Part shown: piece after piece, positions 34,879 to 54,838 of the stretch | Position numbering within the stretch: position 1 is the first letter of the stretch | How the letters are laid out: every line of letters begins with the position of its first letter | Source of the DNA: a virus | DNA length: 64,000 nt | Virus record (IMG/VR): IMGVR_UViG_3300042934_000547 | Span: 126,001 to 190,000 of that record | Direction: 5' to 3' (one strand) | Notes under the pieces: generated by a model | Databases searched by the model: none | What the model was told of the DNA's origin: nothing | What the model saw: only the letters and a program-made list of their open reading frames with translations | Program-made: the position numbers and the translations under genes

Positions 34879-34938
34879 CTCACTTCTTTATAGAAGAATA
34901 GTTACGTGAGTTATATATCCAACCAAGGATATATTTCG
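34879..34938 (-). ncRNA. Structured 5' leader element, copy 1
   Basis: On the minus strand: a hairpin ATATATCC-TTGGTT-GGATATAT (34913-34934), then CTCAC...GTGAG (34879-34910) enclosing an inner TTCTT/AAGAA-type helix. The same element follows a promoter at 54778-54838 with compensatory changes in the first stem. It lies between promoter and ribosome site, so a cis-regulatory RNA is likely. Confidence 0.6.
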
Positions 34939-34959
34939 ATTATATTATTTACTATTCAA

Positions 34960-34997
34960 TTCTATAATATATATTTAAAAATACTAATTTTTACATC
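34960..34997 (-). promoter_or_regulatory. Phage promoter motif (copy 8)
   Basis: On the minus strand: GTAAAAATTAG, then AAATATATATTATAGAATTG (core 34963-34973). It starts the transcript carrying the structured leader. Confidence 0.75.
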
Positions 34998-35005
34998 TGT
35001 TATAA

Positions 35006-35251
35006 TTATGGGTATGGACTCAATCTTGGTGGACGCATGTTTGGCTTGCATAATGGTTCACCATATTGATTATTGATTATAGTTTTAAGTGCCTTAATTT
35101 GTCCTTCATAATATGCCTTCATAGCATTATATTCTTCAAGTGTTACAGTTTTAGTTTGTCTGTTTTTAGATTTAAATCCCTGTGTGTTTATCATAACTTT
35201 ATCTATTTCTTCTTGTAAACTAGGAATTGCTGGTTCATTAAACATATCCAT
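35006..35251 (-). CDS. Hypothetical small protein (81 aa)
   Basis: This 81-aa protein has a central helix with coiled-coil character (about 35-65) and a Pro/Arg-rich end. GAGAGGAAG precedes the ATG. It ends just before the promoter at 34960 and is probably the last gene of the run from 41229. Confidence 0.7.
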   Translation of the reverse strand: MDMFNEPAIPSLQEEIDKVMINTQGFKSKNRQTKTVTLEEYNAMKAYYEGQIKALKTIINNQYGEPLCKPNMRPPRLSPYP

Positions 35252-35260
35252 TCTTCCTCT

Positions 35261-36019
35261 CTAATAATATATTTTTGACAGAAACTTATTTAATTCTGTT
35301 AGTATCTTCTTATTATAACCAATTTTAATATTATTAACATCATCGCAAGTATTTACACCATACTTGTTATATATATTAAATTTGCTGGTATGATTAAGTT
35401 CTCTATAATAATTCACATTCAAACTTCTATTACTATATTGCTGATAAAAGAATCGTGAATTGACTATAGCTTGTGCTACATTACCCGTCATCACTAAGTA
35501 ATATATATGACATATAAAATCTAACATATAATCTTTATGTAATTCGAGAAATGTATCTTTTATACCCTTGATATCAAGTTTTTCTGTATCAGCCATAATA
35601 TCATATTGATAATACGTCTCTAATGCTCCAATCCTATTAAATAGATTATATCTGTTTTTCTCAATAAAATTAATGTTATCGAATTGTGTAACCATAGGTT
35701 TTCGATTTACCAGAAACACAGCATCATTCTTTACCGATAGTATGTCATCAGGTAGTATGTTATTTATTGAAATGAAGTTATCAACTACTTCTGTAAATCC
35801 ACTTGACAATGCTTCTGATAGCTCCTTATTATTTTGAATCAATAAACCAACCTTACGATTACGTTCTTCTTTGGGTAATATCTTTAATGCATCATACAAA
35901 TTATCTTCTATCAATCCATATCGTTTCATTACATTGATATTACCTTGTTGTATATCATATTCATAAATAAATTTATTAACAATGAATTCATAATTTGGAT
36001 TAATATAAAATTTGCCCAT
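35261..36019 (-). CDS. Hypothetical protein (252 aa)
   Basis: This is a 252-aa protein, Asn/Tyr/Ile-rich, with a recognisable core PDDILSVKNDAVFLVNRK (about 90-107) that looks like a beta-hairpin with conserved Lys and Asp. I do not recognise the family. The start abuts the stop of the upstream gene. It belongs to a five-gene cluster of unknown function (35261-37935). Confidence 0.75.
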   Translation of the reverse strand: MGKFYINPNYEFIVNKFIYEYDIQQGNINVMKRYGLIEDNLYDALKILPKEERNRKVGLLIQNNKELSEALSSGFTEVVDNFISINNILPDDILSVKNDAVFLVNRKPMVTQFDNINFIEKNRYNLFNRIGALETYYQYDIMADTEKLDIKGIKDTFLELHKDYMLDFICHIYYLVMTGNVAQAIVNSRFFYQQYSNRSLNVNYYRELNHTSKFNIYNKYGVNTCDDVNNIKIGYNKKILTELNKFLSKIYY

Positions 36020-36438
36020 TATACTCGCCTTTCATCAGCCACACTAATATCAATACCATGAGATCTACATATTTTACTAAGGCATATATAAGACATAAAA
36101 CTGTGTATATCGTTTTCAACGATAATAGCCCTTTGATCTTTGATTAAATCATCAATAGTGTATGATATACAATCCCAGATACTTTGGTTTCGTCTTTCAT
36201 AAACTATTAATTCTCCCGTGGTACTGGAAATTATTGCCCCTAGAACTATAGCCATTTTCATTTGATTCTGAAATTTAATATCATCATCAACCGACGGTTT
36301 TACAATTATATCAAATATTTCCCTAGAAAATAAATAATCGTCATCTGTTATGCAATTATCTAATATCCTAATAAATTTCTCAGTATCTAAGTCATAAATT
36401 TCCGAGTCGTTTGATAATATAATTCTTAGACTAGACAT
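36019..36438 (-). CDS. Hypothetical protein of a four-member cluster (139 aa)
   Basis: The C-terminal segment runs AIIVENDIHSFMSYICL-then-helix-then-DISVADERR, a strand-N/D-helix-strand-acidic pattern also seen in the three genes upstream. It overlaps the next gene upstream by 13 bp. Possibly one of four diverged paralogues. Function is unknown. Confidence 0.75.
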   Translation of the reverse strand: MSSLRIILSNDSEIYDLDTEKFIRILDNCITDDDYLFSREIFDIIVKPSVDDDIKFQNQMKMAIVLGAIISSTTGELIVYERRNQSIWDCISYTIDDLIKDQRAIIVENDIHSFMSYICLSKICRSHGIDISVADERRV

Positions 36439-36830
36439 AATAAATCTCCTCTGAAATCACATAAGACATAATCAGTTATTCTAGATACTTTCAATGCACC
36501 AATAAATTGTGTTAGTATCATATACAGTGGTGATGATATATTAAAATTATAAGGGATAAATATATCAAACCCTCTATTATAAAAATGTAATATTTCCATC
36601 ATAGGTAAGTGAATTTCGAAATTATCTATAACATGATCGACAAGGTTTGATACCTTATTACCTGATTTATTATAGTCAAATACACTCATCAACTCATTAG
36701 ATAGACGTTGAGATGATTGAAATTCCTCACCAATTTTAATAAGTCCCCTCATCAAATGCTGTTTATTTTTTAATTTAAATATTTCAAAACTTTCTTTATC
36801 AACATTCGTTGTATAGTATATATAAATCAT
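36426..36830 (-). CDS. Hypothetical protein of a four-member cluster (134 aa)
   Basis: This has the same ending pattern as its neighbours: FDIFIPYNFNISSPLYMIL, a helix, then DYVLCDFRGDLL. AAAAAGGAG precedes the ATG. Function is unknown. Confidence 0.75.
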   Translation of the reverse strand: MIYIYYTTNVDKESFEIFKLKNKQHLMRGLIKIGEEFQSSQRLSNELMSVFDYNKSGNKVSNLVDHVIDNFEIHLPMMEILHFYNRGFDIFIPYNFNISSPLYMILTQFIGALKVSRITDYVLCDFRGDLLCLV

Positions 36831-36860
36831 CTTATTGTCTCCTTTTTAAATAAAAATAAA

Positions 36861-36882
36861 AGGTATACTAAATAGTATACCT
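36861..36882 (-). terminator. Intrinsic terminator
   Basis: The stem AGGTATACT / AGTATACCT is followed by TTTATTTTTATTT on the minus strand. It closes the unit ending with 36881-37351, so the genes from 36830 may have their own promoter that I cannot identify. Confidence 0.8.
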
Positions 36883-37351
36883 ATCTTCTTATATTCGACA
36901 TCATCATTTCTCTTATGTCTTTATCAAGAACTTCTAGATATGGAGCAGCTATCTCTAGTTCTTTTATACCATCATAATCATCCATGCAGTTTATTTCTGT
37001 ATAGTTTGTATTATATCTATCAGTAATAAATCCTATAATTTCATATAACAAAATACCTTTTACGGTATATTTATTGTTACATACAATATATACATCTATA
37101 CCATTATAAATATAATACGAAAAAGCACTGAATAGAAATAACAGTGTACATCTAGCATGTGGATTACTGAATGGTGCTGTTAAGCTTTCTAAATATTGTC
37201 TACTGTACGCTGATATATCATTTTGTTTGTTACGTGAGACACAAGGTTGTATCCCAAAGACCATTTCCGCCAGACTCTCACCATCAGGTACAATTGATTT
37301 TTCATTTGTACTAGGTTGTATTAAACTCTGGTCATTTACTATATATAACAT
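36881..37351 (-). CDS. Hypothetical protein of a four-member cluster (156 aa)
   Basis: The middle contains VYIVCNNKYTVKGILLYEII followed by NYTEINCMDDYDG, again strand-helix-strand-acidic. AAGGAGG precedes the ATG. The stop lies next to a terminator. Function is unknown. Confidence 0.75.
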   Translation of the reverse strand: MLYIVNDQSLIQPSTNEKSIVPDGESLAEMVFGIQPCVSRNKQNDISAYSRQYLESLTAPFSNPHARCTLLFLFSAFSYYIYNGIDVYIVCNNKYTVKGILLYEIIGFITDRYNTNYTEINCMDDYDGIKELEIAAPYLEVLDKDIREMMMSNIRR

Positions 37352-37356
37352 TTTGG

Positions 37357-37935
37357 TTATATCCTCCTTAATATTGGCACTTGTGAAGCTGTTTTGATGT
37401 CATTTACTTGATAGTTAACCTGCTTACACGCTAACTCAAATTGTGGGTTATCAATAACCTGATTGATGTAACCAAATCTACGTACTGCTTCAATATACAT
37501 TGATGGACTTATATCTCCTATTGCATAAGAAGATTCTAACATACGCAATCCAGCATATTTACCACCCTGATAATCTACATTCATTGAAGGTATACCAAGA
37601 ATAATATCGAAATTCTCTCGTATATAATTGTGTAGTATCTCCAAGTAACCCATGTCAAATTCATCCTGAGTTACATAAATAAATATTGGTTCACTAGAAC
37701 CTAATAATCTAACTAAAAATGGTTTAGCATCATCAAGTTGCTTTCTGAATAATCTATTAGCTTCAACAGCATTATCTTCTATTATAGCTGTTACGGCATC
37801 GACCATTGGTATTAGACAAGCTAAATCTGGTAATATAGTTACATTAGGGTGAGTCATTGTTATCGACTCATACCCTAATGCATATGCAACACTACCTACT
37901 GGTAGACTATTTAGATTCGTTATTATATTTATCAT
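37357..37935 (-). CDS. Hypothetical protein of a four-member cluster (192 aa)
   Basis: The middle has PIFIYVTQDEFDMGYLEIL, a helix, then GIPSMNVDYQGG, matching the pattern of the three shorter neighbours; the C-terminal 60 residues are helical. It overlaps the upstream gene by 29 bp. Function is unknown. Confidence 0.75.
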   Translation of the reverse strand: MINIITNLNSLPVGSVAYALGYESITMTHPNVTILPDLACLIPMVDAVTAIIEDNAVEANRLFRKQLDDAKPFLVRLLGSSEPIFIYVTQDEFDMGYLEILHNYIRENFDIILGIPSMNVDYQGGKYAGLRMLESSYAIGDISPSMYIEAVRRFGYINQVIDNPQFELACKQVNYQVNDIKTASQVPILRRI

Positions 37936-39613
37936 TTTGTTCCTCTTTCTTTAAATTCTTAACGAATATTGAGTTTGGATCATTAGCCATGTTTTGCAGA
38001 CGGTCCATTAATGATTCATCCTCATTGAGAGTTGGATTAATTGTATCCTGAATTTTTTGATAATCTTCATCTAATTCTACTGGAACAATATCATCGTCTT
38101 CATCGTCATCATTTTCTATAGATACGCAATTAAATGTATCTCCCTCGAAACTGTTAACAAATTCTTCTACCGACTCCTTTTTAAGTTTATTATCCATAAT
38201 TGTATAAATCGATTCATCAACATTTGAATCAGCCTTAATTTCTTCCGGTGTTTCCTTAATAATTTCACTACCTAAAATCTTACCAGTTGATGTATCAATT
38301 GTTGCACGTATTGTGATTCCATCACTTACAGCAGCTTTATCTTCTGCTTTTATTTTGATTTCATCCTTAGCAACAACCAGTTTGGAAAAATCTACTTTAT
38401 CACCCTTATCGATGACATTGTTATCTATAGGTTTCAAACTAATTTCATCTTTCATTCTTACCATTTCATTGTCTGCTACTAGTTTCAATTTAGTTCCAAC
38501 AACATCTTTCAACTTTGGAACTGAATCATACTCTTCCTGAGTAACAACTTTATCCTCTATTACAATCACTTTTTTTAGAGGAGTTATTTCTTCTTTTTTG
38601 GCAATAAATGATTGGTAATTTTTATTTACCTTTGGTTCCACTTCTAATAATCTAAATCCTTTTCCCTCATTTACTGTTTTTGTTTCTACATCATATTTAT
38701 GAGGAACTGGTCCATCAACTTTAGGTGCTACTAATTTGCTTATATCAATTTTGTCAACACCATCATCTAATTGGTTACTCTTTTCTCCGCCAACTTCCTT
38801 TATGATTTGGTCTCCACATCTCAAAATTATTCTTTCATTTGATTTCATTATTTTGTTTCCTCCTATTATTTTTATGGAATCTGTTTTAATACTTAAATCT
38901 CTTGCATTATATCTTCTTCCGCATTTATCACATATCAATTCATTAAATCCATCGTCATAACCAATATGTCCCATACACGGTGTTCTCGATGGATCTTCTC
39001 TTTTGACATGGGTACAAAATACTTTTCCACCATCCATTGGATAAACATATGGAAAATCTATTATACCCGGTCCTCTTTTGAATACAGCCCAATTCATAAA
39101 ATAATTGGTTCCAAAGTCTGCCATAACATATTTACCGATAAAGTAATTTGTTATTATATCATATACATCAGATGCTATGTTTAAGAACTCCTGAGTATGA
39201 GTTATAGGTCGACCACGTTCTGCTGACAGCATAGTACCTTCAGGTGCTACTTCAAATATTTTCGAACAGAATGGTTTTAACATCTGTTGATTAATAAATT
39301 CAGCTGGATTATCTGTCAACGCTGTATGATCGACTGGAACTTTTACTATTATATCATTAAATTCGATTGGTCTATATATAACTCTGTTTGTTCCAGATGC
39401 AAATTTAACAAATCCCCTCGCTGTCATTATCTTATCAATTGCATCTTTCTTTTTCTTGAGCTTACCTGAATATCTAATTGATGAAGCAATATCATGTAAA
39501 TTTACAAAGTCATTTGTACTAAATGCTTGAAATATACTAAATGATGGTTTTAATTCATCAAATTCTACTTCTGAAGGTAATTTAACCTTATTGTATATTC
39601 TATCTAGCAACAC
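37907..39613 (-). CDS. Kinase-fold-like protein with zinc finger (568 aa)
   Basis: The N-terminal 190 residues follow the order of a protein-kinase/aminoglycoside-phosphotransferase-like fold: Gly-loop-like GTNRVIY (74-80), Lys91 on a strand, Glu105 on a helix, MADFGTNYFMNW (164-175) standing for the catalytic loop and IIDFPYVY (184-191) for the metal-binding Asp. A four-Cys site follows (200, 213, 228, 231). The remaining 330 residues are charged, Lys/Asp/Val-rich, low-complexity and probably extended. The start is GTG at 39613, 6 bases after GGGAGGG. Catalytic activity is uncertain. Confidence 0.75.
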   Translation of the reverse strand: MLLDRIYNKVKLPSEVEFDELKPSFSIFQAFSTNDFVNLHDIASSIRYSGKLKKKKDAIDKIMTARGFVKFASGTNRVIYRPIEFNDIIVKVPVDHTALTDNPAEFINQQMLKPFCSKIFEVAPEGTMLSAERGRPITHTQEFLNIASDVYDIITNYFIGKYVMADFGTNYFMNWAVFKRGPGIIDFPYVYPMDGGKVFCTHVKREDPSRTPCMGHIGYDDGFNELICDKCGRRYNARDLSIKTDSIKIIGGNKIMKSNERIILRCGDQIIKEVGGEKSNQLDDGVDKIDISKLVAPKVDGPVPHKYDVETKTVNEGKGFRLLEVEPKVNKNYQSFIAKKEEITPLKKVIVIEDKVVTQEEYDSVPKLKDVVGTKLKLVADNEMVRMKDEISLKPIDNNVIDKGDKVDFSKLVVAKDEIKIKAEDKAAVSDGITIRATIDTSTGKILGSEIIKETPEEIKADSNVDESIYTIMDNKLKKESVEEFVNSFEGDTFNCVSIENDDDEDDDIVPVELDEDYQKIQDTINPTLNEDESLMDRLQNMANDPNSIFVKNLKKEEQNDKYNNESK

Positions 39614-39615
39614 AA

Positions 39616-41229
39616 TCAACCCTCCCTTCTAGGTGGTATGGTATCTTCAATTCTTATTGTACCCTTACCATCATACTTTCTAGCAAGTTCTGCTTCAAAA
39701 TTAATATCATTCAAAATATTCATTGGAATATTATCAGCTTTAATCGAATTAATAAATCTGTTCTTCTGTTCGAATGTTGCCATAGATGGTGCTGGTATTC
39801 TTACTTCAATATCATCTAGGTTAATATCTTCACCTCGTTCGATTGCTTCTATGATATTACCATATTGATCTCTATGACCGTACATATAACCTAGTTTCTT
39901 ATAAAGTCCTCTATTATATTGACTATTTATGTCAAACCTAAGTTTATTACTTCTATCCATCATTAATTGCTCATCATACATATCACCAAGCACTCTTAAC
40001 ATTTCTGCTTTACATGAGCATTTCTTTAACACTTCATTTTGTTTATCTCTTGATGCTTGTAACATTTTTGTCATATAACTTGTGTCATATGCGTCATTAA
40101 CTCCAGCCCTCAATACATAATCAGTTTTATTCTGTCCAAGTTTTATTTTTGCTTCTTCTGGACTTGTAAATAATTTAGGTTTGTCGGCTTCCATAACTTT
40201 CTTTAAATTTTTGAGAGCCTCTTCCCTTAATTCAGCTGAAGTTTTTCTAATTCCTTTATTTGCGTATTCATGTCCTATTCTAACACTCTCCAACATAATA
40301 GCACTCTGGTTATGCATATCAATTGCTTGTTGTTGGTGAGGTGGCATCCACGGATTCTTCTCTAATAAATCCATGATTGTCTTAGGTCTTTGTGGTTGTT
40401 GATTCGGAAACATCATTGGACTATTCATCTGTGGATTTTGTATTCCATCAATTCTATCCATCTGTTCCTTAATTCTTAAGTGATGACGTCTCTCATCATC
40501 ACTCAATCGAATCTCATTAATCACTTCAATTTGAGGTTCACTTGGATTCTTCATCTGTTCCTTCTCAAGTTGAATCTCTTTATATCTATCTTCCATATCA
40601 CTAACCACATCTTTTAAACCTCTGTAAATAGGTCTTCCGAGATTTGGCTTAGTTTCAATACCACGTATTTCATTAAAGTCTTTACGGTTTAATAATATAT
40701 TATTTGTAGCACTATAATATGTCATTCCTACATTTGCATTAGGGAATCTATTTTCAAATGCAAACTTACTCGCCATTGGATTCCCAACAAAATCTGGCTG
40801 TCTACCAAAGTTTGTATTTATTGTAGGAAATCTCATACCGGTATTAGGATAATAATTATTTGCGTACATATAATTCTGTTGTTCTGGAGCATATCCTCCA
40901 ATGCTAATATTGTTATCATAATTATAAGTCTCTGGTATATATACATTGTCATGTGGCATCGTTTCATATATGGCTTCATCACCGTATACCTGACGATTAT
41001 ACATCGGGTTCATTCTATCTGTTATATATTGATCGAATGCACTATCATCATATATTTCATCAGTTTGAAATCGACTCAACTTCACGCACTCTTCATTGTT
41101 CTGCATAACTTCTTCAATCGATGGTCTCTGAACAAAACTAGTTGGTCCCATATCAGGTTGATAATCATTGGGTTCTAATTTATTTAAGTAAAATCTGTTC
41201 TCGTTTGGATCATAGTAATTTTGCAACAT
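39616..41229 (-). CDS. Hypothetical Asn/Met/Pro-rich protein (537 aa)
   Basis: The first 200 residues are low-complexity (N, Y, P, M, G), resembling a disordered or scaffold-like region. The second half is helical and charged, with coiled-coil potential (about 205-250 and 320-420). GGGAG precedes the ATG. It is adjacent to and co-transcribed with the kinase-fold-like gene. No family is recognised; a structural or scaffold role is only a guess. Confidence 0.75.
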   Translation of the reverse strand: MLQNYYDPNENRFYLNKLEPNDYQPDMGPTSFVQRPSIEEVMQNNEECVKLSRFQTDEIYDDSAFDQYITDRMNPMYNRQVYGDEAIYETMPHDNVYIPETYNYDNNISIGGYAPEQQNYMYANNYYPNTGMRFPTINTNFGRQPDFVGNPMASKFAFENRFPNANVGMTYYSATNNILLNRKDFNEIRGIETKPNLGRPIYRGLKDVVSDMEDRYKEIQLEKEQMKNPSEPQIEVINEIRLSDDERRHHLRIKEQMDRIDGIQNPQMNSPMMFPNQQPQRPKTIMDLLEKNPWMPPHQQQAIDMHNQSAIMLESVRIGHEYANKGIRKTSAELREEALKNLKKVMEADKPKLFTSPEEAKIKLGQNKTDYVLRAGVNDAYDTSYMTKMLQASRDKQNEVLKKCSCKAEMLRVLGDMYDEQLMMDRSNKLRFDINSQYNRGLYKKLGYMYGHRDQYGNIIEAIERGEDINLDDIEVRIPAPSMATFEQKNRFINSIKADNIPMNILNDINFEAELARKYDGKGTIRIEDTIPPRREG

Positions 41230-41248
41230 CTTGTTGTTCTCCCTCTTA

Positions 41249-41560
41249 TTATTTTATTTCCAACTCCGTTTTACAATATGGACATGTAAATATCTTTACG
41301 TTACCCATTTGTATCACTTTAGTTTCCCATCCATTTTTAAATATTATATGATTGCACATAGGGCATCGTTTAGATTTAGTTATAGATGTATACACAATAA
41401 GTCTCGCTTGTGATATATCTATTTTATTTAATTTCATTTGATTTAGTTCTTCTCCTAAACCTGTTACGTCTTCTTCTTCTTGTTCTATTTCTTTTTTCTT
41501 AAATATACCTGTAAAGAATTTCTTTACAAGATAGCTATAATATATTATATGGTCTAACAT
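41249..41560 (-). CDS. Zinc-ribbon protein (103 aa)
   Basis: A hydrophobic/basic N-terminus and an acidic stretch precede a classic zinc ribbon: Cys66-x-x-Cys69 (CPMC) and Cys93-x-x-Cys96 (CPYC) separated by two strands. Such ribbons occur in transcription factors and in RNA polymerase-associated proteins. AAGGAGG precedes the ATG, and a phage promoter lies about 30 bp upstream, so it heads a long unit. Confidence 0.82.
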   Translation of the reverse strand: MLDHIIYYSYLVKKFFTGIFKKKEIEQEEEDVTGLGEELNQMKLNKIDISQARLIVYTSITKSKRCPMCNHIIFKNGWETKVIQMGNVKIFTCPYCKTELEIK

Positions 41561-41586
41561 TTGTTGTCCTCCTTCAATATTATTAC

Positions 41587-41597
41587 TATAATATATA
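41587..41597 (-). promoter_or_regulatory. Phage promoter motif (copy 9)
   Basis: The minus-strand core AAGTATATATTATAGTAAT lies just upstream of the zinc-ribbon gene. Confidence 0.7.
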
Positions 41598-41658
41598 CTT
41601 ATTCACTATATTAAATAGTTTTTCAAATATTAATATTAAAATTTCTGGCATAGAAAAA

Positions 41659-41684
41659 TGGGATAACTAATTAAAGTTATCCCA
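41659..41684 (-). terminator. Intrinsic terminator
   Basis: The stem TGGGATAACT / AGTTATCCCA is followed by TTTTTCTATG on the minus strand. Confidence 0.85.
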
Positions 41685-41694
41685 ATTGATTTTA

Positions 41695-42042
41695 TTATAT
41701 ACAAAAATAAGATAATGCTTCCTTAACTTCATCCGGTAAATTTGGCGGATAAGAGAAAAACATTCTATCTTTATTTACTACTATACCTAAATTTGGTTTA
41801 TATTCGGGCAACCCGAATAACCAGCTTCCTAATGTATTTACAGATACTTCATTACTGTCGTATTGTATCACAATTGGTTCATCAGTTTCAATTTTGGCGA
41901 AATAGATTTTGTTAAACTTTTTCTTAAAAACCTTTCTAATGTTCACCATTGTTTTTACATAGTTATCCTTAACAAACTCTGGTTTAATTTCTTTTCTGGA
42001 AGTTTGTTTAGATAAACCCCTCAAACAAATACTCTCTGTCAT
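41695..42042 (-). CDS. Hypothetical protein (115 aa)
   Basis: This 115-aa basic N-terminal protein has a strand-rich centre and a C-terminal helix. Its start overlaps the end of the RNase H gene by 4 bp, implying coupling. Function is unknown. Confidence 0.75.
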   Translation of the reverse strand: MTESICLRGLSKQTSRKEIKPEFVKDNYVKTMVNIRKVFKKKFNKIYFAKIETDEPIVIQYDSNEVSVNTLGSWLFGLPEYKPNLGIVVNKDRMFFSYPPNLPDEVKEALSYFCI

Positions 42043-42713: not shown

Positions 42714-42743
42714 TTTGTTGTCCTCCTAAAATATTATCGAATA

Positions 42744-42754
42744 TATAATATATA
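42744..42754 (-). promoter_or_regulatory. Phage promoter motif (copy 10)
   Basis: The minus-strand core AAGTATATATTATATATTCG lies about 30 bp upstream of the RNase H gene. Confidence 0.7.
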
Positions 42755-42767
42755 CTTCTAATATGTT

Positions 42768-43379: not shown

Positions 43380-43380
43380 A

Positions 43381-44154: not shown

Positions 44155-44155
44155 A

Positions 44156-45207: not shown

Positions 45208-45270
45208 TTTATTACCCTTTCTTTGCCTCATTTTAGGATAAGATATGAGGTCTTACACATTATTTTCTTA

Positions 45271-45310
45271 TCCATATCTATAATATACATTTGAAATAAG
45301 TTATATTTAC
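45271..45310 (-). promoter_or_regulatory. Phage promoter motif (copy 11)
   Basis: On the minus strand: GTAAATATAA, then AAATGTATATTATAGATATG (core 45279-45289). Confidence 0.75.
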
Positions 45311-46685: not shown

Positions 46686-46742
46686 TATAAACTCCTATTT
46701 ATTATATTTGATTTTATCTTATAGTTGATCATAAAGATTTTT

Positions 46743-47201: not shown

Positions 47202-47249
47202 AATATATTACCTCCAATATTGGTTAATTAGAATAGTGTCATAAAAAAG

Positions 47250-47273
47250 AAAGAGAGGGAATCCCCTCCTTTC
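47250..47273 (-). terminator. Intrinsic terminator
   Basis: An imperfect stem (GAAAGGAGGGG / CCCTCTCTTTC) is followed by TTTTTTATG on the minus strand. Confidence 0.75.
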
Positions 47274-47274
47274 A

Positions 47275-48006: not shown

Positions 48007-48035
48007 TTTGTTTGTCTCCCTTTATATTTTATTTT

Positions 48036-48056
48036 TAATAGAATATGATTCTATTA
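48036..48056 (-). terminator. Intrinsic terminator
   Basis: The stem TAATAGAAT / ATTCTATTA is followed by AAAATAAAATA on the minus strand. The tail is weak, so read-through is plausible. Confidence 0.5.
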
Positions 48057-48062
48057 TTACTT

Positions 48063-48896
48063 CTAAACGTATAATATCTGTTTTATGTAATTGCTGGATT
48101 TAATCTCAATTAATTGATTGTTTCTGGTATAATATAATTTATATGAGTCCTTAAATACCGTTTTATCGTCTTCGATTATTTCTGTAAATATTCTATCACC
48201 TTTATCATTAAATTCAGTAAAAGTAATATCAGTTATGCGTTTATTTTGTTCATTCTTATATTGCATAAATTCTTTATTTGTAGCTTCCTTACCATTTTCA
48301 TGATATGTGTATTCAGTAACATGAATTTTATCTGCATCATTATCATATGTATGAGTTATAGATTTAATCTGGTTCTCATCATTGTAATAATAATCAGTAA
48401 CAATACCATTTTTGTGATTTATGTATCGTGTCAAATCATTTCTGATATTATAATAGTATGATGATAATATTCTACCATTCTCATCACATATCTCACTTAT
48501 CATATCACTGTTTTCAAAATACTTCATTATCACAATATTATCATCTGAAACTAATTCTGATAATAATCCACTTCCATTATATTTATATAATGTGATTTTA
48601 GGTACACCAGTTTTGATATCAAAATCAAATGTACTAATTATCTTACCAGACAAATCATATTCTGACTTAGATAATACAACTCCATTAGTATTATACTTAG
48701 TTTCAATAATTCTAGTATTACTATGAGTAAAAACTGTTCTAAGTTCTTTAATAAGTTTACCCTTAGTATTAACCTCTTTCTCATATAGAGATTGACCTGA
48801 GTCATTAAACATCTCAAGTCCAATTTTAGAAATCTTACCTTCTCCATCATTAAATTTAGTTGTAACTATCTTAGTTACCTTATTTGAATTCATCAT
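48063..48896 (-). CDS. YD-repeat-like protein 4 (277 aa)
   Basis: This has the most regular YD/RHS-like repeats of the group: YDLSGKIIS, YKYNGSGLLSELV, DENGRILSSYYYN, YYYNDENQIKSITHTYDND and EYTYHENGKEA, about 20 residues apart. A GGGGGAATT site precedes two adjacent ATGs. The gene is preceded by a phage promoter. No signal peptide or toxin domain is present. Confidence 0.87.
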   Translation of the reverse strand: MMNSNKVTKIVTTKFNDGEGKISKIGLEMFNDSGQSLYEKEVNTKGKLIKELRTVFTHSNTRIIETKYNTNGVVLSKSEYDLSGKIISTFDFDIKTGVPKITLYKYNGSGLLSELVSDDNIVIMKYFENSDMISEICDENGRILSSYYYNIRNDLTRYINHKNGIVTDYYYNDENQIKSITHTYDNDADKIHVTEYTYHENGKEATNKEFMQYKNEQNKRITDITFTEFNDKGDRIFTEIIEDDKTVFKDSYKLYYTRNNQLIEIKSSNYIKQILYV

Positions 48897-48962
48897 TCGA
48901 ATTCCCCCTGTTATTAAGATTATTAATTCTATCCTATATTAGATTAGAATCAATTTCATAAA

Positions 48963-48973
48963 TATAATATATA
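48963..48973 (-). promoter_or_regulatory. Phage promoter motif (copy 13)
   Basis: The minus-strand core AAGTATATATTATATTTATG lies about 65 bp upstream of YD protein 4. Confidence 0.7.
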
Positions 48974-49029
48974 CTTATAAGTGTTTTTATGGAATTGAAA
49001 TGATTAAGTGATTTAATTGGGTAGAAGAA

Positions 49030-49240
49030 TTTTTTACCCTTCTCTTCTCCTTTCCCCCCTTAAACCCCCCTTTCCTCATCTCATCCCATTCACCCCTCTC
49101 CCTTATAATCTAGATTTAAATTATATTTATTTATTCTTTATTATTCTACCATCAATTCCATTATTCTTTATTTATCTTTAATTTTATTTATTTTTCTTCT
49201 TTCTCTTTATTTCTTTTCTTTATTCTTCCTGAGCTTCATC
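49030..49240. other. Polypyrimidine/polypurine tract in a noncoding gap
   Basis: Inside the longest gene-free stretch (48897-49491) the plus strand is almost all C and T for about 200 bp, first C-rich (two CCCCCC runs), then T-rich with CTTTATTT-type repeats. No convincing reading frame exists on either strand. It could be a replication, packaging or transcription-related site, or part of a noncoding RNA. Confidence 0.6.
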
Positions 49241-49361
49241 CATGAACCCCAATCTCGCTTCGCTCGTTCATTGGGTTCATGTCTCTACGAGACATTTTAG
49301 AGTCCAAAGCCCCCTATAGAAAACACCCGGTAGTAAAAAACTACCGAATGCGGGGGCTTGG
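49241..49361. ncRNA. GC-rich structured element (three hairpins)
   Basis: Three consecutive inverted repeats: CATGAACCC/GGGTTCATG (49241-49281) with a CGCTTCGCTCG apex; GTCTC/GAGAC (49281-49293); and a long CCAAAGCCCCC/GGGGGCTTGG stem (49304-49361) enclosing CGGTAGT/ACTACCG. The density of pairing and the high G+C, in an AT-rich genome, suggest a functional RNA or a DNA structure such as an origin. Strand is undecided. Confidence 0.55.
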
Positions 49362-49491
49362 ACATAGTTACAACGCTCGACAATATTAGTATCAACTTTT
49401 GTGATTATCCTATTGTTATTCGTAAATATTTTTTATAAATTTTATAGTCCTTCAACAATACTATAAATAATCCTTAGGAGGATATAAATAA

Positions 49492-50106
49492 ATGAATATA
49501 AAAAATAAGATTAGGTTATTCTTTCATAAATATAATTTAGATAATATATTTCTATTCTTTAATAATGATATAGATTTAGAAACTAAAACGACCATTCTGA
49601 GTGAGGAAGAAATATTAAGCAATCCTTTAGCTAGTTTATGTCAGCACCCATTTTATTCTATTATAGATATAAGCTTTGTTAATCAAAAAATAGTAATCAG
49701 TCTAGAGTCAATTATAACTCTAACCATATTACATGATTGTATTCAGAATATTTATAATAGAACGTCTGACTATATATTCACATTTGACATCACACGGTCT
49801 TATAAGATAGATAAGCTCGTAATCGATGTGGAAATACAATTCAGTACGACTCAGCAGGCTTATAAGTATTTACTCCTTTTACTGACTGACCTTAACCTAG
49901 AACTTATAGAAAGTGTAACTGTAGAACCTAAAAATATTTACGAGCATGATGATCTACTAAAATATTTCAATTCATATCAAGTAAATTATGAATCATATAT
50001 ACGATATTTGGATTCTAGTAAAACTAAACCTCAAATCAAATATATTATTGATGTACTTCATAATCATAATGATATGATTAAAAATATTCGTGATTTAATA
50101 CATTAG
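49492..50106 (+). CDS. Hypothetical protein (204 aa)
   Basis: This 204-aa soluble protein of alternating strands and helices has a strong TTAGGAGG site. It is a lone plus-strand gene between the structured noncoding region and a bidirectional terminator. No family is recognised. Confidence 0.8.
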   Translation: MNIKNKIRLFFHKYNLDNIFLFFNNDIDLETKTTILSEEEILSNPLASLCQHPFYSIIDISFVNQKIVISLESIITLTILHDCIQNIYNRTSDYIFTFDITRSYKIDKLVIDVEIQFSTTQQAYKYLLLLLTDLNLELIESVTVEPKNIYEHDDLLKYFNSYQVNYESYIRYLDSSKTKPQIKYIIDVLHNHNDMIKNIRDLIH

Positions 50107-50118
50107 AAAAAAAAATAA

Positions 50119-50144
50119 ACCTCTAGGACTTTAATCCTAGAGGT
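50119..50144. terminator. Bidirectional terminator
   Basis: The stem ACCTCTAGGA / TCCTAGAGGT, with a long A-run on the left and T-rich sequence on the right, separates convergent genes. Confidence 0.9.
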
Positions 50145-50155
50145 ATCTTTATTTT

Positions 50156-51175
50156 CTATAAATCCGTATATATTTCTTCTAATAGATTTCCATCCATATC
50201 ATAAATTTTTCTATGCTTTTGATACTTATCAAATCTTACAGCTTCCTTATTCCATTTAGAATAAATAAACTCTTTAAAATGACATTCTATATCATTATAA
50301 ATGAAATCTCTTTCCATCATCAACTTAGAGAAGTTTCCATCATGGAAATATATACTTCCACCATCAGGCATGATGATATTTTTGTATTCATAGTCGTCGA
50401 TTTTTTCTGTTACCATTACTACATCATGTGGTAACGATTCTATAGTAACGGTGTGCCCCTGATTAGCAGCTACTATTGTGTAAGAACTAGGACGTCTTTG
50501 AAGTACCTCAAAATTATCAGTTGGTTTTAATAATATCTTATCCCTAATTTTACTATAATTGATCTTACCATAAACTGATGAAACTAAATCTCTGAATGAA
50601 GAGTAATTACCATCTGTTAAAATAGATGTACCGTTCTCAGTGATATTAGCTAATAAGCCACTCTTGCTATAGAAATATTTAAACTCTTTCTTAGCTGGTA
50701 TTATGACTATCATTCGTTCCACATCGTGACGATATGATGTGTATGAATATATCATATGAGATACAGTACGTTGGTCGTTTAAACCTAAAACGCTTTTAAC
50801 TAACAACAATTTGGTATCCATATTATTATAAATGCTTATTGTTGCCTTACCAGTAACTTCATCATATATTATAACAGTATTACCATATTGCACTCCCTTT
50901 ATTTCACGTTTAGTAACTTCGCCAGTAACAAGATTTGTCGTCCTATGTATTTGGTGTGGTAAATCTTCACGCAGACTCATGTATTCAACATTTAATTCAG
51001 TTGATGCTACAAAGTCAGTCTTTGTCTTTATTCCACCATAGTTATTATAAATCTCTTCCTTTAGAAGTTTACCCTGAGACTCTTCGGTCCCCTGTTCATA
51101 AAGATATGTATGTCGTAACTTTGATTGTCCATCTACTAATGCATATACTTTCCTTAATTCATTTTTTCCTTCCAT
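50156..51175 (-). CDS. YD-repeat-like protein 5 (339 aa)
   Basis: This is the longest and most diverged member of the family. The N-terminus (ELRKVYALVDGQSKLRHTYLYEQG) and later stretches (YSKSGLLANITENG and IYDMDGNLLEEIYTD) keep the YD-like unit. The start is at 51175, 6 bases after AAGGAGG; the longer frame reads into the promoter. Its own promoter is present. Function is unknown. Confidence 0.82.
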   Translation of the reverse strand: MEGKNELRKVYALVDGQSKLRHTYLYEQGTEESQGKLLKEEIYNNYGGIKTKTDFVASTELNVEYMSLREDLPHQIHRTTNLVTGEVTKREIKGVQYGNTVIIYDEVTGKATISIYNNMDTKLLLVKSVLGLNDQRTVSHMIYSYTSYRHDVERMIVIIPAKKEFKYFYSKSGLLANITENGTSILTDGNYSSFRDLVSSVYGKINYSKIRDKILLKPTDNFEVLQRRPSSYTIVAANQGHTVTIESLPHDVVMVTEKIDDYEYKNIIMPDGGSIYFHDGNFSKLMMERDFIYNDIECHFKEFIYSKWNKEAVRFDKYQKHRKIYDMDGNLLEEIYTDL

Positions 51176-51213
51176 TTGTATCCTCCTTATATAACCTTTT
51201 AACTTATCGTTTA

Positions 51214-51224
51214 TATAATATATA
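51214..51224 (-). promoter_or_regulatory. Phage promoter motif (copy 14)
   Basis: The minus-strand core GGGTATATATTATATAAACG lies about 40 bp upstream of YD protein 5. Confidence 0.7.
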
Positions 51225-51253
51225 CCCATATCAAATTTTGAAAATAAAAGGGA

Positions 51254-51273
51254 GGAGTGAAATTAATCACTCC
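51254..51273 (-). terminator. Intrinsic terminator
   Basis: The stem GGAGTGA / TCACTCC is followed by TCCCTTTTATTTT on the minus strand. It is the second terminator in series after the one at 51340-51372. Confidence 0.65.
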
Positions 51274-51339
51274 CAACAAGATGATTTTTATTACTTTACT
51301 TATAACCGAGACTTATGATATAGTTATATATATTTAGAA

Positions 51340-51372
51340 AAAAAAATATCGGGTAGGAAATCAATCCTACCC
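51340..51372 (-). terminator. Intrinsic terminator
   Basis: The stem GGGTAGGA / TCCTACCC is followed by GATATTTTTTTTT on the minus strand. It ends the probable noncoding RNA at 51373-51480. Confidence 0.85.
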
Positions 51373-51480
51373 ATTAGGCATGTGTAAAAGTAATTGATTT
51401 ATATGAATTAAAAAAGGAACGTTGTTGATGGAAAACAAATTTTAGGAGTTATACATAACAAATTGTCTTCACATGCCTAT
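51373..51480 (-). ncRNA. Candidate structured noncoding RNA
   Basis: A perfect 10-bp long-range pairing (TAGGCATGTG at 51375-51384 with CACATGCCTA at 51470-51479) encloses about 85 nt without an open frame and is followed directly by a strong terminator on the minus strand. Smaller inner hairpins such as GTTAT-GT-ATAAC are present. No known family is recognised. It could instead be the 3' end of the transcript from 52496. Confidence 0.55.
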
Positions 51481-51530
51481 TTTATTTAACTGAAATTTTC
51501 TTATTCAATTACCTTATTGTTATTACCCTA

Positions 51531-51644
51531 TTAATTATTATTACGTTGAATTGGTATAATATTATGAGTAAATTTGAATAGTAATTGTTCAGACTCTTCC
51601 ACCATCAATGCCTCTAGTATGAATTTCTTTTCATTAATTGTCAT
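51531..51644 (-). CDS. Small hypothetical protein (37 aa)
   Basis: A 37-aa charged frame starts 3 bp after the stop of the ATP-cone gene, with AAAGGAAAA as its ribosome site. It has no membrane segment. Coupling is plausible, but evidence for translation is modest. Confidence 0.45.
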   Translation of the reverse strand: MTINEKKFILEALMVEESEQLLFKFTHNIIPIQRNNN

Positions 51645-51647
51645 AGT

Positions 51648-52496
51648 TTATTTTTCCTTTATTATGTATTCTAAATTATTCAGTTTAAGTTTATTAGCAT
51701 AACTAAATAATTCAGTGGCAAATATATCATCACATTGTTTATGCCAATTTATTTTTTCTTCATCTGTCATTTCCAACAGCGTACAAAATTCATCATATCT
51801 ATCTATATATAGATATACCTTAGATTTATTATCCCATACATCCAATGTTTTATCTAATCTCACTTTACGAACAATAAATCGTGCCAGTGTTTTTAATACA
51901 TTGATATATAATTCTTTATTGAAACGTCCTGATTCTTCAAATAACTGAAATACATTTACAGTAAATTTATTGTATCTAATTCTATCAAGACTAATATATC
52001 CACTGTATATATATTTAAATAAATCGTATCGCTCATTTATCTGTATTGGATAACTAAAATTATTCATATTAATATTGTGAGTACATTTCGATACCCAATC
52101 ATTAAATTTCTTTGAATTAATATTAGTATGTAATATCTCAGTTACCGTATAACTAGGTTGTATATTGATGAAATTACTTAATGGTATTTCATCTACACAA
52201 TTCACAGGAACATAGGAATTTGCTCGGTTATTATTATAACAGACGTAATACTTAAGAGCCATAGGTTCATATTTAATGAGTAATCGTTCAATAGCCTCCT
52301 GTATCTCACAGCTTTGAACTATATCCCTAGAACCAAATTCTTTTTTGATTTTTCCAGAGATAGTATAAACTAATGAAACGTCCTCTAGATATTTTTTAGG
52401 ATTGCAAGCCACCAAAACTGAATTTAAAATAATATTGAGTTTTTCTTTATTAAATGGTTCTACCGCCCCGTTCCGTTTAATAATTAAAGTAATCAT
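51648..52496 (-). CDS. Stand-alone ATP-cone domain protein (282 aa)
   Basis: The first ~95 residues are an ATP-cone: IKRNGAVEPFNKEKL near the start and EIQEAIERLL...LKYYVCYNNNRA at its end. These cones sense ATP/dATP in ribonucleotide reductases and NrdR. The remaining 185 residues are not a reductase core (no radical Cys, glycyl radical or Tyr motif) and no NrdR zinc finger is present. The protein may sense nucleotides to control another enzyme. GGGAG precedes the ATG. Confidence 0.75.
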   Translation of the reverse strand: MITLIIKRNGAVEPFNKEKLNIILNSVLVACNPKKYLEDVSLVYTISGKIKKEFGSRDIVQSCEIQEAIERLLIKYEPMALKYYVCYNNNRANSYVPVNCVDEIPLSNFINIQPSYTVTEILHTNINSKKFNDWVSKCTHNINMNNFSYPIQINERYDLFKYIYSGYISLDRIRYNKFTVNVFQLFEESGRFNKELYINVLKTLARFIVRKVRLDKTLDVWDNKSKVYLYIDRYDEFCTLLEMTDEEKINWHKQCDDIFATELFSYANKLKLNNLEYIIKEK

Positions 52497-52654
52497 ATTG
52501 TAAGTCTCCCTTCTAATGCCTATTAATTAAATTATCTTTATGTTTGTTTTTTCGTTAAATATTCTACAGTTACATAAATCAATATCTCCGTGAAATTTAT
52601 TATTTTATACCATTGCAACATTATAATAGTTGTGGAAGACTAAAGGAGAATATG

Positions 52655-53464
52655 ATGATGGAAAATAAAATAGATGTACAAGGATATAAGTATTATTCAA
52701 TAGAAGATAATATTATTAGAATCTCTAAAGATAAAAATGTTATTAATGATAAGTGGACTAAACTGAAAATGGATGCATTAATGGCTTTTCATATAATATC
52801 GAATGATGATGGAGCCAAATATATTATGGTTGCTATGTACAATAATGGTGACTATAAAAATCCTGTTCTGATATTTGTTTCAAATTTTATAAATGAATGG
52901 GACGCAAATATTGGTAATAGAATACTAGGGAAAACATTCAACAGGTATACTGGAATTGATGAAAATTTATTTAAGGTTATAAAAATAGAATATTCCGAAT
53001 ATGTTGCTATATATAAGGAAGATTCATTTAAAAATATTTATGACCAACTTATTAATAAAGATAAGTTTAATGAAGTCCTTAAAGCATTTAATTCTGCTTT
53101 TATAGAAATGGGTAATCTTAATATATCTCTACCTGATAATCTTTATGATTATATGAAACACGGTGCATTTGATTATGACTACGATAATGAATTAGGCATT
53201 GAGCAACTTGAATTTGACCTTGAAATAGATAATGAGAGACTAATCAACCAATTAGACTTAGAAACATTTCTCGGTCATAAATTAATTCAACCTGTTATAG
53301 TCAAATATAATCGAATTATAGTTTTAGAAGATATCAAAAAAGACTATGGATTATTCCGTGACGCCACTGATACATTATATCTAGTTACGTTTATTCGTGG
53401 AGATATAATAGATGATGAAAACCTAGATTTAATCGAGTGGAATAAGAGCTTTGGAGTGAGGTAA
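52655..53464 (+). CDS. Hypothetical acidic protein (269 aa)
   Basis: This is a 269-aa soluble, acidic protein. Three ATGs in a row (52652, 52655, 52658) follow AAAGGAG; the second has a more usual spacing. A longer frame from 52613 includes the ribosome site. Structure appears mixed alpha/beta; no motif is recognised. The gap of about 150 bp before it, shared with the divergent ATP-cone gene, probably holds promoters for both. Confidence 0.75.
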   Translation: MMENKIDVQGYKYYSIEDNIIRISKDKNVINDKWTKLKMDALMAFHIISNDDGAKYIMVAMYNNGDYKNPVLIFVSNFINEWDANIGNRILGKTFNRYTGIDENLFKVIKIEYSEYVAIYKEDSFKNIYDQLINKDKFNEVLKAFNSAFIEMGNLNISLPDNLYDYMKHGAFDYDYDNELGIEQLEFDLEIDNERLINQLDLETFLGHKLIQPVIVKYNRIIVLEDIKKDYGLFRDATDTLYLVTFIRGDIIDDENLDLIEWNKSFGVR

Positions 53465-53465
53465 T

Positions 53466-53500
53466 AAAATATATTATAAATATATATTATAACAATGAAT
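53466..53500 (+). promoter_or_regulatory. Phage promoter motif (copy 15)
   Basis: The plus-strand core AAATATATATTATAACAATG is at 53481-53491, 45 bp before the start at 53536. A second AATATATTATA lies just upstream. Confidence 0.7.
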
Positions 53501-53535
53501 TAAACAAATTTAAAATTTTAGGAGGAACAACAAAG

Positions 53536-54255
53536 ATGGATATGGATAATACATTCATGAACCCAAACCAAGTGAATCAAAAGGAAATAAAGGATTACGA
53601 AGCAGAATTCGATACTCCAATTACATTAAGTGAGCCGATGAGATTTTATATCGAGACCACTACACGTTTAGGTATGGAGATATTAAAGAAGTATACTCCA
53701 ATTTTCGGCGACTTAATCGGTACGTTTATTACGGTTAATACCAAAGGCGATCTTGAAGTATCATTACAGTTTGAGAAAAAAGGTGCTGGCAATGTTGTAG
53801 ACTTATTCAACAACAGTGACTTCAACCAAAGAATTACAGCGTTCAATACGCTTAACACAACAAACAGAATCTTCGATTTAGATGATACTGTTAAAGGAAC
53901 TTTCCAAAGATTCTTAATCAAAGCTAATCCAATGCAGAAAATTGATTGGAATCAATATATCAGACAAATAACAATCAACAACAACACTATGAGTGGAAAG
54001 CACACAATTCTTGAATTGGCTCACATTTCACTTGATAGATTGCTGCCTGAATTAATATTTGTTGGAGAAGATGCTAAGAAAAAACGCACTACTCAGATTA
54101 AGACTATTATAACTGGTTCTGTAAATCCAGCTTCACCATTATCAAAAAATTGGTTCGTGAAGATAGATATGCTGGATCAAGCTACTGTTGATTTCGTATC
54201 TAAAGAAGCAGGAATTGTTACAAGCACTTACGGCTTGGATATGATAACACTCTAA
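53536..54255 (+). CDS. Hypothetical, probably abundant protein (239 aa)
   Basis: This 239-aa protein has its own phage promoter, an AGGAGG site and a terminator, and its wording is richer in G and C than its neighbours, which suggests strong expression. It is a mixed alpha/beta soluble protein with a long helix at 35-50. No family is recognised. Next to the PC4-like gene, it may be another DNA-related or structural protein. Confidence 0.8.
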   Translation: MDMDNTFMNPNQVNQKEIKDYEAEFDTPITLSEPMRFYIETTTRLGMEILKKYTPIFGDLIGTFITVNTKGDLEVSLQFEKKGAGNVVDLFNNSDFNQRITAFNTLNTTNRIFDLDDTVKGTFQRFLIKANPMQKIDWNQYIRQITINNNTMSGKHTILELAHISLDRLLPELIFVGEDAKKKRTTQIKTIITGSVNPASPLSKNWFVKIDMLDQATVDFVSKEAGIVTSTYGLDMITL

Positions 54256-54263
54256 TATAGCAG

Positions 54264-54286
54264 AGGGTATACATTATGTATACCCT
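54264..54286 (+). terminator. Intrinsic terminator
   Basis: The stem AGGGTATAC / GTATACCCT is followed by TTAATTTTTCTC. Confidence 0.85.
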
Positions 54287-54313
54287 TTAATTTTTCTCTA
54301 TGGAGGTACACTA

Positions 54314-54643
54314 ATGGCTTTCGAAGACAAACTCGAATATGACATAGAACAAGAATTAGGTGTATTTGATGAAAAAGGAAATACATCACTTGAATTAAGA
54401 GTTGTAAGCTGGAATAAGAAGCCTGCTAAACTTGAATTAAGAAAATGGGTAACCAACAGCGATGGTCAAAATCCAAATAAAGGATTCTCATTCTTAACTG
54501 ATGAAGGTCCGCATCGTCTTGCTGAACTTTTAGTTGAAAATAATTTTGGAGATACAAAAACTCTAAAAGCTCTTTTAATTGATAGGGATGATTACGATGA
54601 ATCTGAATCAGATTATGACTATTTGGATGAAGAAGAAGAATAA
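54314..54643 (+). CDS. PC4/YdbC-like ssDNA-binding protein with acidic tail
   Basis: Residues 25-80 follow the PC4/YdbC fold pattern: LRVVSWNKKPAKLELRKW, a basic loop, then KGFSFLTDEGPHRLAELL (strand and final helix). PC4-like proteins bind single-stranded DNA as dimers. The last 18 residues are nearly all Asp, Glu, Tyr and Ser (DDYDESESDYDYLDEEEE), like the partner-binding acidic tail of phage and bacterial SSBs. It is 109 aa, the expected size. This phage may use it as its replication SSB. Confidence 0.72.
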   Translation: MAFEDKLEYDIEQELGVFDEKGNTSLELRVVSWNKKPAKLELRKWVTNSDGQNPNKGFSFLTDEGPHRLAELLVENNFGDTKTLKALLIDRDDYDESESDYDYLDEEEE

Positions 54644-54648
54644 CAATT

Positions 54649-54678
54649 AATGGTGGAACCTGTAATCGGGTTCCATCA
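54649..54678 (+). terminator. Intrinsic terminator
   Basis: The stem ATGGTGGAACC / GGGTTCCATCAT is followed by TTTTTTTT on the plus strand. Confidence 0.92.
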
Positions 54679-54719
54679 TTTTTTTTTGTATTATGACAAT
54701 ATTCGCATCAAGATAAGAA

Positions 54720-54765
54720 TGTAAAAATTAACTTTTTTGAATATATATTATAGATATGAATAGTA
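54720..54765 (+). promoter_or_regulatory. Phage promoter motif (copy 16)
   Basis: On the plus strand: GTAAAAATTAAC, then GAATATATATTATAGATATG and AATAGTAAATAATA (core 54742-54752). It matches copy 8, including the sequence after the core. Confidence 0.78.
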
Positions 54766-54777
54766 AATAATAAATAG

Positions 54778-54838
54778 TAGTATATTCTTAGTTGAATATA
54801 TAAACTCACATAACTATTCTTCTTTCATAAGAAGTGAG
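54778..54838 (+). ncRNA. Structured 5' leader element, copy 2
   Basis: Hairpin TATATTC-TTAGTT-GAATATA (54781-54800) is followed by CTCAC...GTGAG (54805-54838) around an inner TTCTT/AAGAA helix. The order, spacing and most unpaired bases are shared with 34879-34938 on the opposite strand, while the first stem differs by paired changes. It lies between promoter 16 and the ribosome site at 54843. Confidence 0.6.

Follow-up and report, generated by a model that had tools for sequence, protein, structure and literature searches.

Candidate 5'-terminal pseudoknots in the early transcript leaders of an AR9-related jumbo phage

Stem-loops at the extreme 5' end of an mRNA serve as stabilisers in the papA, aprE, ompA and T7 leaders, where they take the form of local hairpins. 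The exoribonuclease-resistant RNAs of flaviviruses are internal and stop the exonuclease in transit. In bacteria, 5' hairpins are described as stabilising mRNA and impeding RppH, and in Bacillus a hairpin, a ribosome site or a bound protein at the 5' end is described as protecting long downstream regions (PMC3997798). The small RNA RoxS, when paired to the 5' end of an mRNA, is reported to block RNase J1 (PMC5419742). Among phages, the leader pseudoknot of gene 32 in T4, T2 and RB69 is presented as the autoregulatory site of a single gene (PMC3014915), and the early transcripts of AR9 are said to have long untranslated regions (UTRs) with unexplained 5' UTR motifs, reported without a function (PMC5312081). 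The subject here is a window of 64,000 nucleotides (nt) from a 231,975-base IMG/VR virus record (IMGVR_UViG_3300042934_000547; G000:C1:126001-190000) and two structured leaders within it, copy 1 on the minus strand and copy 2 on the plus strand. Sequence comparison supports the conclusion that the two belong, as one sub-family, to a wider group of early leaders whose shared feature would be pairing with the 5' end of their own transcript.

By protein similarity, the source phage is a distant member of the jumbo-phage group of AR9, PBS1, BpSp and phiR1-37. An RNA polymerase beta' fragment (26608-28107) and a virion protein (30859-33162) have these and other jumbo phages as their nearest named relatives, at 22-29% identity among the matches listed. 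The AR9 early promoter, mapped by differential RNA sequencing (dRNA-seq), is given as AAATATATATTAT-6N-G (PMC5312081), and both copies stand behind an AR9-type promoter for the virion RNA polymerase. The related pattern AARTRTATATTAT-6N-G occurs in the whole record at 29 exact sites and at 46 with at most one mismatch, against 3 for a reversed control pattern at the latter setting. The transcripts of both copies are predicted to start GAATAGT. An earlier note on this DNA had treated AATAGTAAATAATA as a distinctive element. Because the promoter is of the AR9 early type, that string is the predicted 5' end of the transcript from +2 onward and no free-standing box; with two mismatches allowed it occurs at chance level (11 matches, 8.95 expected).

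The note's account of the two places is otherwise borne out. The promoter, a hairpin (P1) and a CTCAC/GTGAG stem (S2) are common to both copies, which align from +2 with a mean column identity of 90%, and the structure lies just before the ribosome site, S2 ending 20 nt (copy 1) and 16 nt (copy 2) before the ATG. Across the whole record, copy 2 resembles copy 1 at 84% over 118 nt, where the similarity ends. The string CTCACRTAACTATTCTTCT has two matches in the window, both exact, with a chance mean of 0.10 when three mismatches are allowed. What had been missed is a third pairing (S1), in which the first 7 nt of the transcript, including the initial G, pair as GAAUAGY at +1 to +7 with RCUAUUC inside the second stem. 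When only nested folding of the single strand is considered, the leaders at full length are unremarkable (z -0.92 and -1.39) and their cores somewhat unusual (z -2.28 and -2.11).

The compensatory base changes proposed earlier hold in so far as P1 pairing is kept. The two copies alone are weak evidence, since only one P1 pair differs on both sides (C-G/U-A) and another on a single side (A-U/G-U). A covariance model built from these two copies finds a third outside the window (G000:C1:110441-110501; 54.6 bits, E 2.1e-9), likewise behind an early promoter, so that the element is not confined to two copies. With three copies, pairing holds in 71 of 72 cells (98.6%) and 7 of 24 pairs are changed on both sides (three in P1, three in S2 and one in S1), a result reached in 0 of 500 shuffles; slid versions of the structure give 0-1 such changes. 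A second measure, that of further pair types, fails to discriminate in this test. In all three copies the partner of the 5' end sits inside S2, itself a covarying stem, and the predicted arrangement is not a simple terminal stem-loop. The third copy also bears on the suggested tie to membrane proteins. The maximum 19-residue hydropathy of the downstream products is 2.98 for copy 1 and 2.31 for copy 2, both hydrophobic, but 1.57 over the 493 stop-free amino acids read behind copy 3; as this third product is not hydrophobic, the tie fails.

The leaders of the phage as a group carry the same feature. Again and again, a long leader contains a stretch complementary to its first 7-10 nt. Forty candidate early leaders were extracted from the record and 36 kept, after removal of a duplicate (L315), of L316 and L317, which are two readings of a single site with A at +1, and of a further leader with A at +1 (L310); two other leaders with A at +1 were retained. 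The set omits further one-mismatch promoter matches, and the leader at 51208 (minus strand) came in through a looser pattern. Leader ends were set by a simple Shine-Dalgarno rule, which wrongly ended copy 1 at a TTG, its true ATG being at 34858, and took an upstream ATG for copy 2; where no start was present, the leader was truncated at 120 or 130 nt. Each 5' end was scored against its own leader body and the ends were then permuted, a score of at least 14 counting as strong. Among the 27 leaders of at least 30 nt there are 15 strong pairings, compared with 2.27 expected with swapped ends (z 8.7, 0 of 20,000). The class was first noticed by eye, and cut-offs of 58, 50 and 45 nt were chosen afterwards, as were nine leaders of related phages discussed below; the 30 nt test is the least dependent on such choices. 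The 17 leaders of at least 58 nt give z 8.65 (0 of 20,000), and one representative per paralogue group still gives z 6.4 (n=11, 0 of 50,000). The 15 leaders of 25-57 nt show no excess (z -0.13).

The position of the signal is informative. An 8-nt probe slid along the long leaders peaks at +1 (z 8.4), is without signal at -4 (z -0.4) and is weak at +5 (z 1.6). At -1, 8 of 14 leaders could pair, which by estimate is about what base composition predicts for U. A peak at +1 with nothing extra at -1 or -4 places the boundary of the pairing at the 5' end of the RNA. S1 begins at +1 in 14 of the 17 long leaders, its partner lying at +26 to +68 within the best enclosing stem, S2, and 12 of the 15 strong pairings span at least 22 nt. 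The 5'-terminal nucleotides are in silico base-paired, as in a 5'-terminal mRNA stabiliser, with +1 taken from the AR9 consensus. A second paralogue group (L313, the leader at 45273 and that at 34) has S1 as GAAUAAG/CUUAUUC, GGAUAAG/CUUAUCC and GAAUGAG/CUCAUUC; here 2 of 8 S1 pairs are changed on both sides, a count equalled by 50 of 500 shuffles.

The explanation favoured here, held with moderate confidence, is that the two leaders form pseudoknots at the 5' end of early transcripts made by the virion RNA polymerase, capturing that end against 5'-dependent decay. The transcript would start at the G preceding AATAG, and its first 7 nt would pair with a segment in the large loop of S2, just upstream of the ribosome site; in the sub-family of copies 1 to 3, P1 would lie between the 5' strand of S1 and S2. 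Burying the first bases would leave the ribosome site free and block decay, be it by enzymes of the RNase E/Y type or by a pyrophosphohydrolase together with a 5'-3' exonuclease (RNase J, for example). Very short early leaders may need no such sealing because the initiating ribosome sits near the 5' end. End protection would account both for pairing that is constant from the first base and for leaders too short to fold, in which the ribosome sits near the end. The promoter context, S1, P1, S2 and their covariation are supported by the comparisons given above, and we infer a function in mRNA protection. Tucking the 5' end away ahead of the gene, as the long early mRNAs appear to do, probably shields the message from decay or adjusts how it is translated.

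A similar arrangement seems to be present in several related giant phages. The leaders taken for permutation tests were 20 of 29 from Staphylococcus phage Machias, 20 of 23 from AR9, 20 of 21 from G038, 6 of 9 from G014 and all of those from G036 (20), BpSp (19) and LPJP1 (10). phiR1-37, with four leaders, offered too few for testing, and SA1, 17 further records, G005 and G031 were left out of the comparison. Machias gives z 7.8 (0 of 20,000), with 13 of 20 leaders strong and 2.5 expected. Many of its early leaders (L338-L357) open with a 5'-terminal hairpin, for example GAGGTAATGA...TCATTACCTC, mostly of the simple kind, and 11 of the 13 strong pairings have loops of at most 12 nt. An excess is also found in G036 (z 5.6, 0 of 20,000; 9 of 20 strong, 2.3 expected) and G038 (z 3.4, 15 of 20,000; 6 of 18 strong, 2.0 expected). 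The phages G001 and G003 (beta' 41% identical) have promoters of the form TATATATTATA-4N-TG, at 18 and 25 sites, and give z 4.1 (2 of 20,000, n=8) and z 2.2 (488 of 20,000, n=11), the latter in a test blunted by nearly identical 5' ends. Nine of their leaders, picked by eye, fit an H-type pseudoknot starting at +1; two have only 5 base pairs in S1 and four required a bulge in the script. In six of the nine, S2 stands directly 5' of the Shine-Dalgarno sequence. Compact 5' leaders resembling H-type pseudoknots, with an A-rich third loop, were noted in two related uncultured phages at L187:8930-8989, L185:2105-2160, L185:5590-5646, L438, L439, L441, L443, L449 and L452.

It is tempting, and no more than tentative, to suppose that in jumbo phages which bring an RNA polymerase of their own, many long early mRNAs have a 5' end that is sealed by design, with a solution that differs by lineage. 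Such sealing would be the DNA-phage counterpart of a cap or of an exonuclease-resistant RNA, keeping early messages alive inside the host cell's cytoplasm. The solution would be a pseudoknot in the present phage, a pseudoknot together with hairpins in G001 and G003, and a terminal hairpin in Machias; phages with very short leaders, such as AR9 and BpSp, would dispense with it, and LPJP1 and G014 would be exceptions to explain.

The P1-S2 sub-family itself was not convincingly found in eight named jumbo phages (model R1, five best loci viewed) or in 50 IMG/VR records of relatives. The best R1 match, at 31.2 bits in Machias, is by eye a different hairpin with the promoter missing. With model R2, 18 of the 50 records had a match at E<=1, and of 28 listed places the 15 viewed (the 14 best and one more) were by eye never behind an early promoter. 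A viral-contig match (L009) was a chance 19-mer in an unrelated, GC-richer phage without P1, and the four matches of a viral scan all lacked P1 by eye. A lack of further copies in related phages had been named beforehand as speaking against the element; it applies in part, to this sub-family, and the collections may lack near relatives.

A number of results weigh against the capture of the 5' end as proposed. The +1 of the early transcripts is a prediction from the AR9 consensus, and 3 of the 17 long leaders do not pair from it. Among the phage's own short leaders (30-57 nt, n=10) there is nothing at +1 (z 0.4) and a lesser own-partner signal at +13 and +15 (z 2.1 and 2.9). There is no excess pairing in AR9 (z 0.3, 13 tested), BpSp (z 0.6), LPJP1 (z 0.8), G014 (z 0.7, 4 tested) or G043 (z -0.1). 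The leaders of AR9 and BpSp are short, with medians of 33 and 35 nt, but those of LPJP1 and G014 are long by the rule used (70 and 73.5 nt) and yet unpaired, contrary to the idea that long leaders are sealed. S2 is weak in individual leaders (p 0.02-0.55 against shuffled flanks), and its position next to the ribosome site suits translational control equally well. Rough energies for 12 leaders, with a pseudoknot penalty of 9.6 kcal, let the pseudoknot win twice, tie once and lose nine times against the nested minimum, and in four leaders from G001 and G003 it loses by 2.5-6.9 kcal. Three of the four strong pairings in G001 are simple hairpins.

The long leaders without pairing from +1 are L300 and those at 48957 and 28182 of the window (both minus strand); the last has A at +1 and may have no promoter. 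L328 (AR9 181695-181895), 119 nt long, is the sole AR9 leader with strong 5'-end complementarity, GTTGAAG/CTTCAAC, from +87.

Translational control is the main rival to end protection. The leader fold would bind a phage or host protein, or a ribosomal component, and thereby control early-gene translation, a role described for the T4 gene 32 pseudoknot (PMC3014915), and this is a serious though less probable reading. S2 is close to the ribosome site throughout (4-23 nt by the script rule over 14 leaders, in addition to the distances and the G001 and G003 cases given above), and the loop and closing pair of P1, CUURGUUG, are unchanged in the three copies while the stem varies, as expected of a protein site. 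The sequences of S1 and S2, however, vary among leaders, and P1 is not shared by the whole class; what stays constant is pairing from +1, which an operator would have no need of. The downstream products scanned have no recognised family in common, and five were without a single-strand-binding match: those of copy 1 (PHROGs and Pfam), copy 2 (PHROGs only) and copy 3 (an incomplete frame; Pfam), and the genes behind the leaders at 1248 and 45273 (Pfam). The earlier proposal of an undescribed riboregulator or protein-binding leader stands as far as structure, covariation and the lack of an Rfam match go; it is too narrow for the class, and the function it assigns is possible but not the best supported.

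The leaders could instead be nested 5'-terminal hairpins, with S2 an alternative or accidental stem, which is unlikely for the class and may hold for single members. Machias and G001 have plain hairpins of this kind, four of the 12 modelled leaders have +1 paired even in the nested minimum, and the weakness of individual S2 stems and the lower nested energies in nine of 12 leaders point the same way. The outcome depends on the penalty, and at 7 kcal the pseudoknot wins in 9 of the 12. Collectively, moreover, S2 is stronger than in shuffled flanks (summed score 196, compared with a null mean of 153 and a maximum of 184 over 1000 null sums; z 5.3, Fisher p 2.8e-4), and in copies 1 to 3 three of its five pairs are changed on both sides. 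The S2 arms of G001 and G003 match their own partners better than swapped ones (z 3.2, 80 of 20,000), the nested minimum of copies 1 to 3 keeps P1 and leaves +1 unpaired, and the long spans of most strong pairings in this phage do not suggest hairpins. An H-type pseudoknot in the leader has covariation and swap tests in its support and rough energies that do not clearly favour it. Pairing of the 5' end is thus well supported, the pseudoknotted form, with S1 and S2 together, is likely but not proven, and leaders L296 and L299 may be plain or simple hairpins.

A metabolite riboswitch or two-state switch, in which one ARCUA segment could pair either with the P1 loop URGUU or with the 5' end and a ligand or time-dependent signal decides, is very improbable. 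The two segments can pair in all three copies and overlap S1, but their changes are one-sided only and the pairing is not evident elsewhere in the class, which has no conserved core; an Rfam match is lacking as well. This complementarity of the P1 loop to the 3' strand of S1 spans 34896-34927 and 54788-54819 of the window. Kissing of the P1 loop with an S2 bulge, the first model considered, was demoted for the same one-sidedness. Least credible of all is that the pattern belongs to the virion RNA polymerase promoter at the level of DNA, or to a duplicated cassette that has no function as RNA, because, even if the first transcribed bases belong to a promoter-like consensus and copies 1 and 2 could be a duplication, the partner segments lie at variable distance, the 25-57 nt leaders behind the same promoter type show no excess and double-sided changes preserve pairing.

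Table 1. Predicted features of the early leaders and their surroundings (window positions)
Feature	Positions	Strand	Details
AR9-type early (virion RNA polymerase) promoter, copy 1	34957..34976	-	AAATATATATTAT-6N-G, exact; predicted +1 is G at 34957
S1 5' strand, copy 1	34951..34957	-	GAATAGT (+1 to +7); pairs with 34896-34902
Hairpin P1, copy 1	34913..34934	-	ATATATCC-TTGGTT-GGATATAT
Stem S2, copy 1	34879..34910	-	CTCAC (34906-34910)/GTGAG (34879-34883); encloses S1 3' strand ACTATTC (34896-34902)
Downstream gene, copy 1	34409..34858	-	149 amino acids; hydrophobic stretches; no Pfam or PHROG match
Early promoter, copy 2	54739..54758	+	GAATATATATTAT-6N-G, one mismatch to the pattern; predicted +1 at 54758
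S1 5' strand, copy 2	54758..54764	+	GAATAGT (+1 to +7); pairs with 54813-54819
Hairpin P1, copy 2	54780..54801	+	GTATATTC-TTAGTT-GAATATAT
Stem S2, copy 2	54804..54839	+	ACTCAC/GTGAGT; encloses S1 3' strand ACTATTC (54813-54819)
Downstream gene, copy 2	54856..54990	+	44 amino acids; hydrophobic; no PHROG match
Further such leader	1177..1248	-	S1 GAACGGAT (1241-1248)/ATCCGTTT (1209-1216); S2 CCTATTT/AAATAGG; gene 778-1176
Further such leader	45208..45273	-	S1 GGATAAGA (45266-45273)/TCTTATCC (45236-45243); S2 CCTCAT/ATGAGG
Early promoter with leader just beyond the window	34..53	-	Leader L003:1457-1525 (minus); S1 GAATGAGA/TCTCATTC

No protein relatives of the 149-amino-acid product of copy 1 were found. 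The frame downstream of the third copy runs for at least 493 amino acids without a stop and has no Pfam match above cut-off, and no orthologues of it were found in nine records by a search that lacked a positive control. A hairpin resembling a terminator, GGTGGAACC...GGTTCCATC with a run of T after it, lies upstream of the copy 2 promoter (54650-54686, plus strand). Elsewhere in the window, a short repeat with a 30-nt unit, TCCGAATTGAACTCCACCTTGTGGCATTCC, occupies 6298-6366 within reading frame 6121-6990.

Rfam offers no match for the leaders. A search of the window with 4227 Rfam families gave none at the gathering score, the copy 1 region had none at E<=5, and the single match among 11 further loci stayed below threshold (25.4 bits, cut-off 45) and lay outside the element. 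No report of 5'-terminal pseudoknots in jumbo-phage early mRNA was found among the titles and abstract openings listed by searches of open-access papers. If the favoured explanation is true, it would add a phage to the mRNAs that seal their own 5' end, and a reason for the long leaders on some giant-phage early transcripts. The naturally varied leaders, with their built-in compensatory changes, are a directly testable set for RNase J and RppH resistance. With the long UTRs and unexplained 5' UTR motifs described for AR9 in view, they also provide a testable hypothesis for the group, though the pairing is not seen in AR9 itself.

Compared with what is known, the leaders look like a variation on the 5'-terminal stabiliser and the phage leader pseudoknot. 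Like the gene 32 leaders of T4, T2 and RB69, they would have a pseudoknot ahead of the ribosome site in the leader of a phage mRNA, but here up to 14 different early leaders in one genome are involved and the defining strand is the +1 end of the transcript. As in the 5'-terminal stabilisers, the 5'-terminal nucleotides would be paired, presumably limiting 5'-dependent decay; unlike in those local hairpins, their partner would be found within the loop of a second stem, and it is the Machias leaders that resemble the classic form. With AR9 the phage has its promoter type in common, whereas the 20 AR9 leaders used are short and show no excess 5'-end pairing (z 0.28 in the 13 tested). The flavivirus RNAs offer an analogy, in that there a structured RNA blocks a 5'-3' exonuclease, as one may do here, but in this phage it would be the natural 5' terminus itself that is paired.

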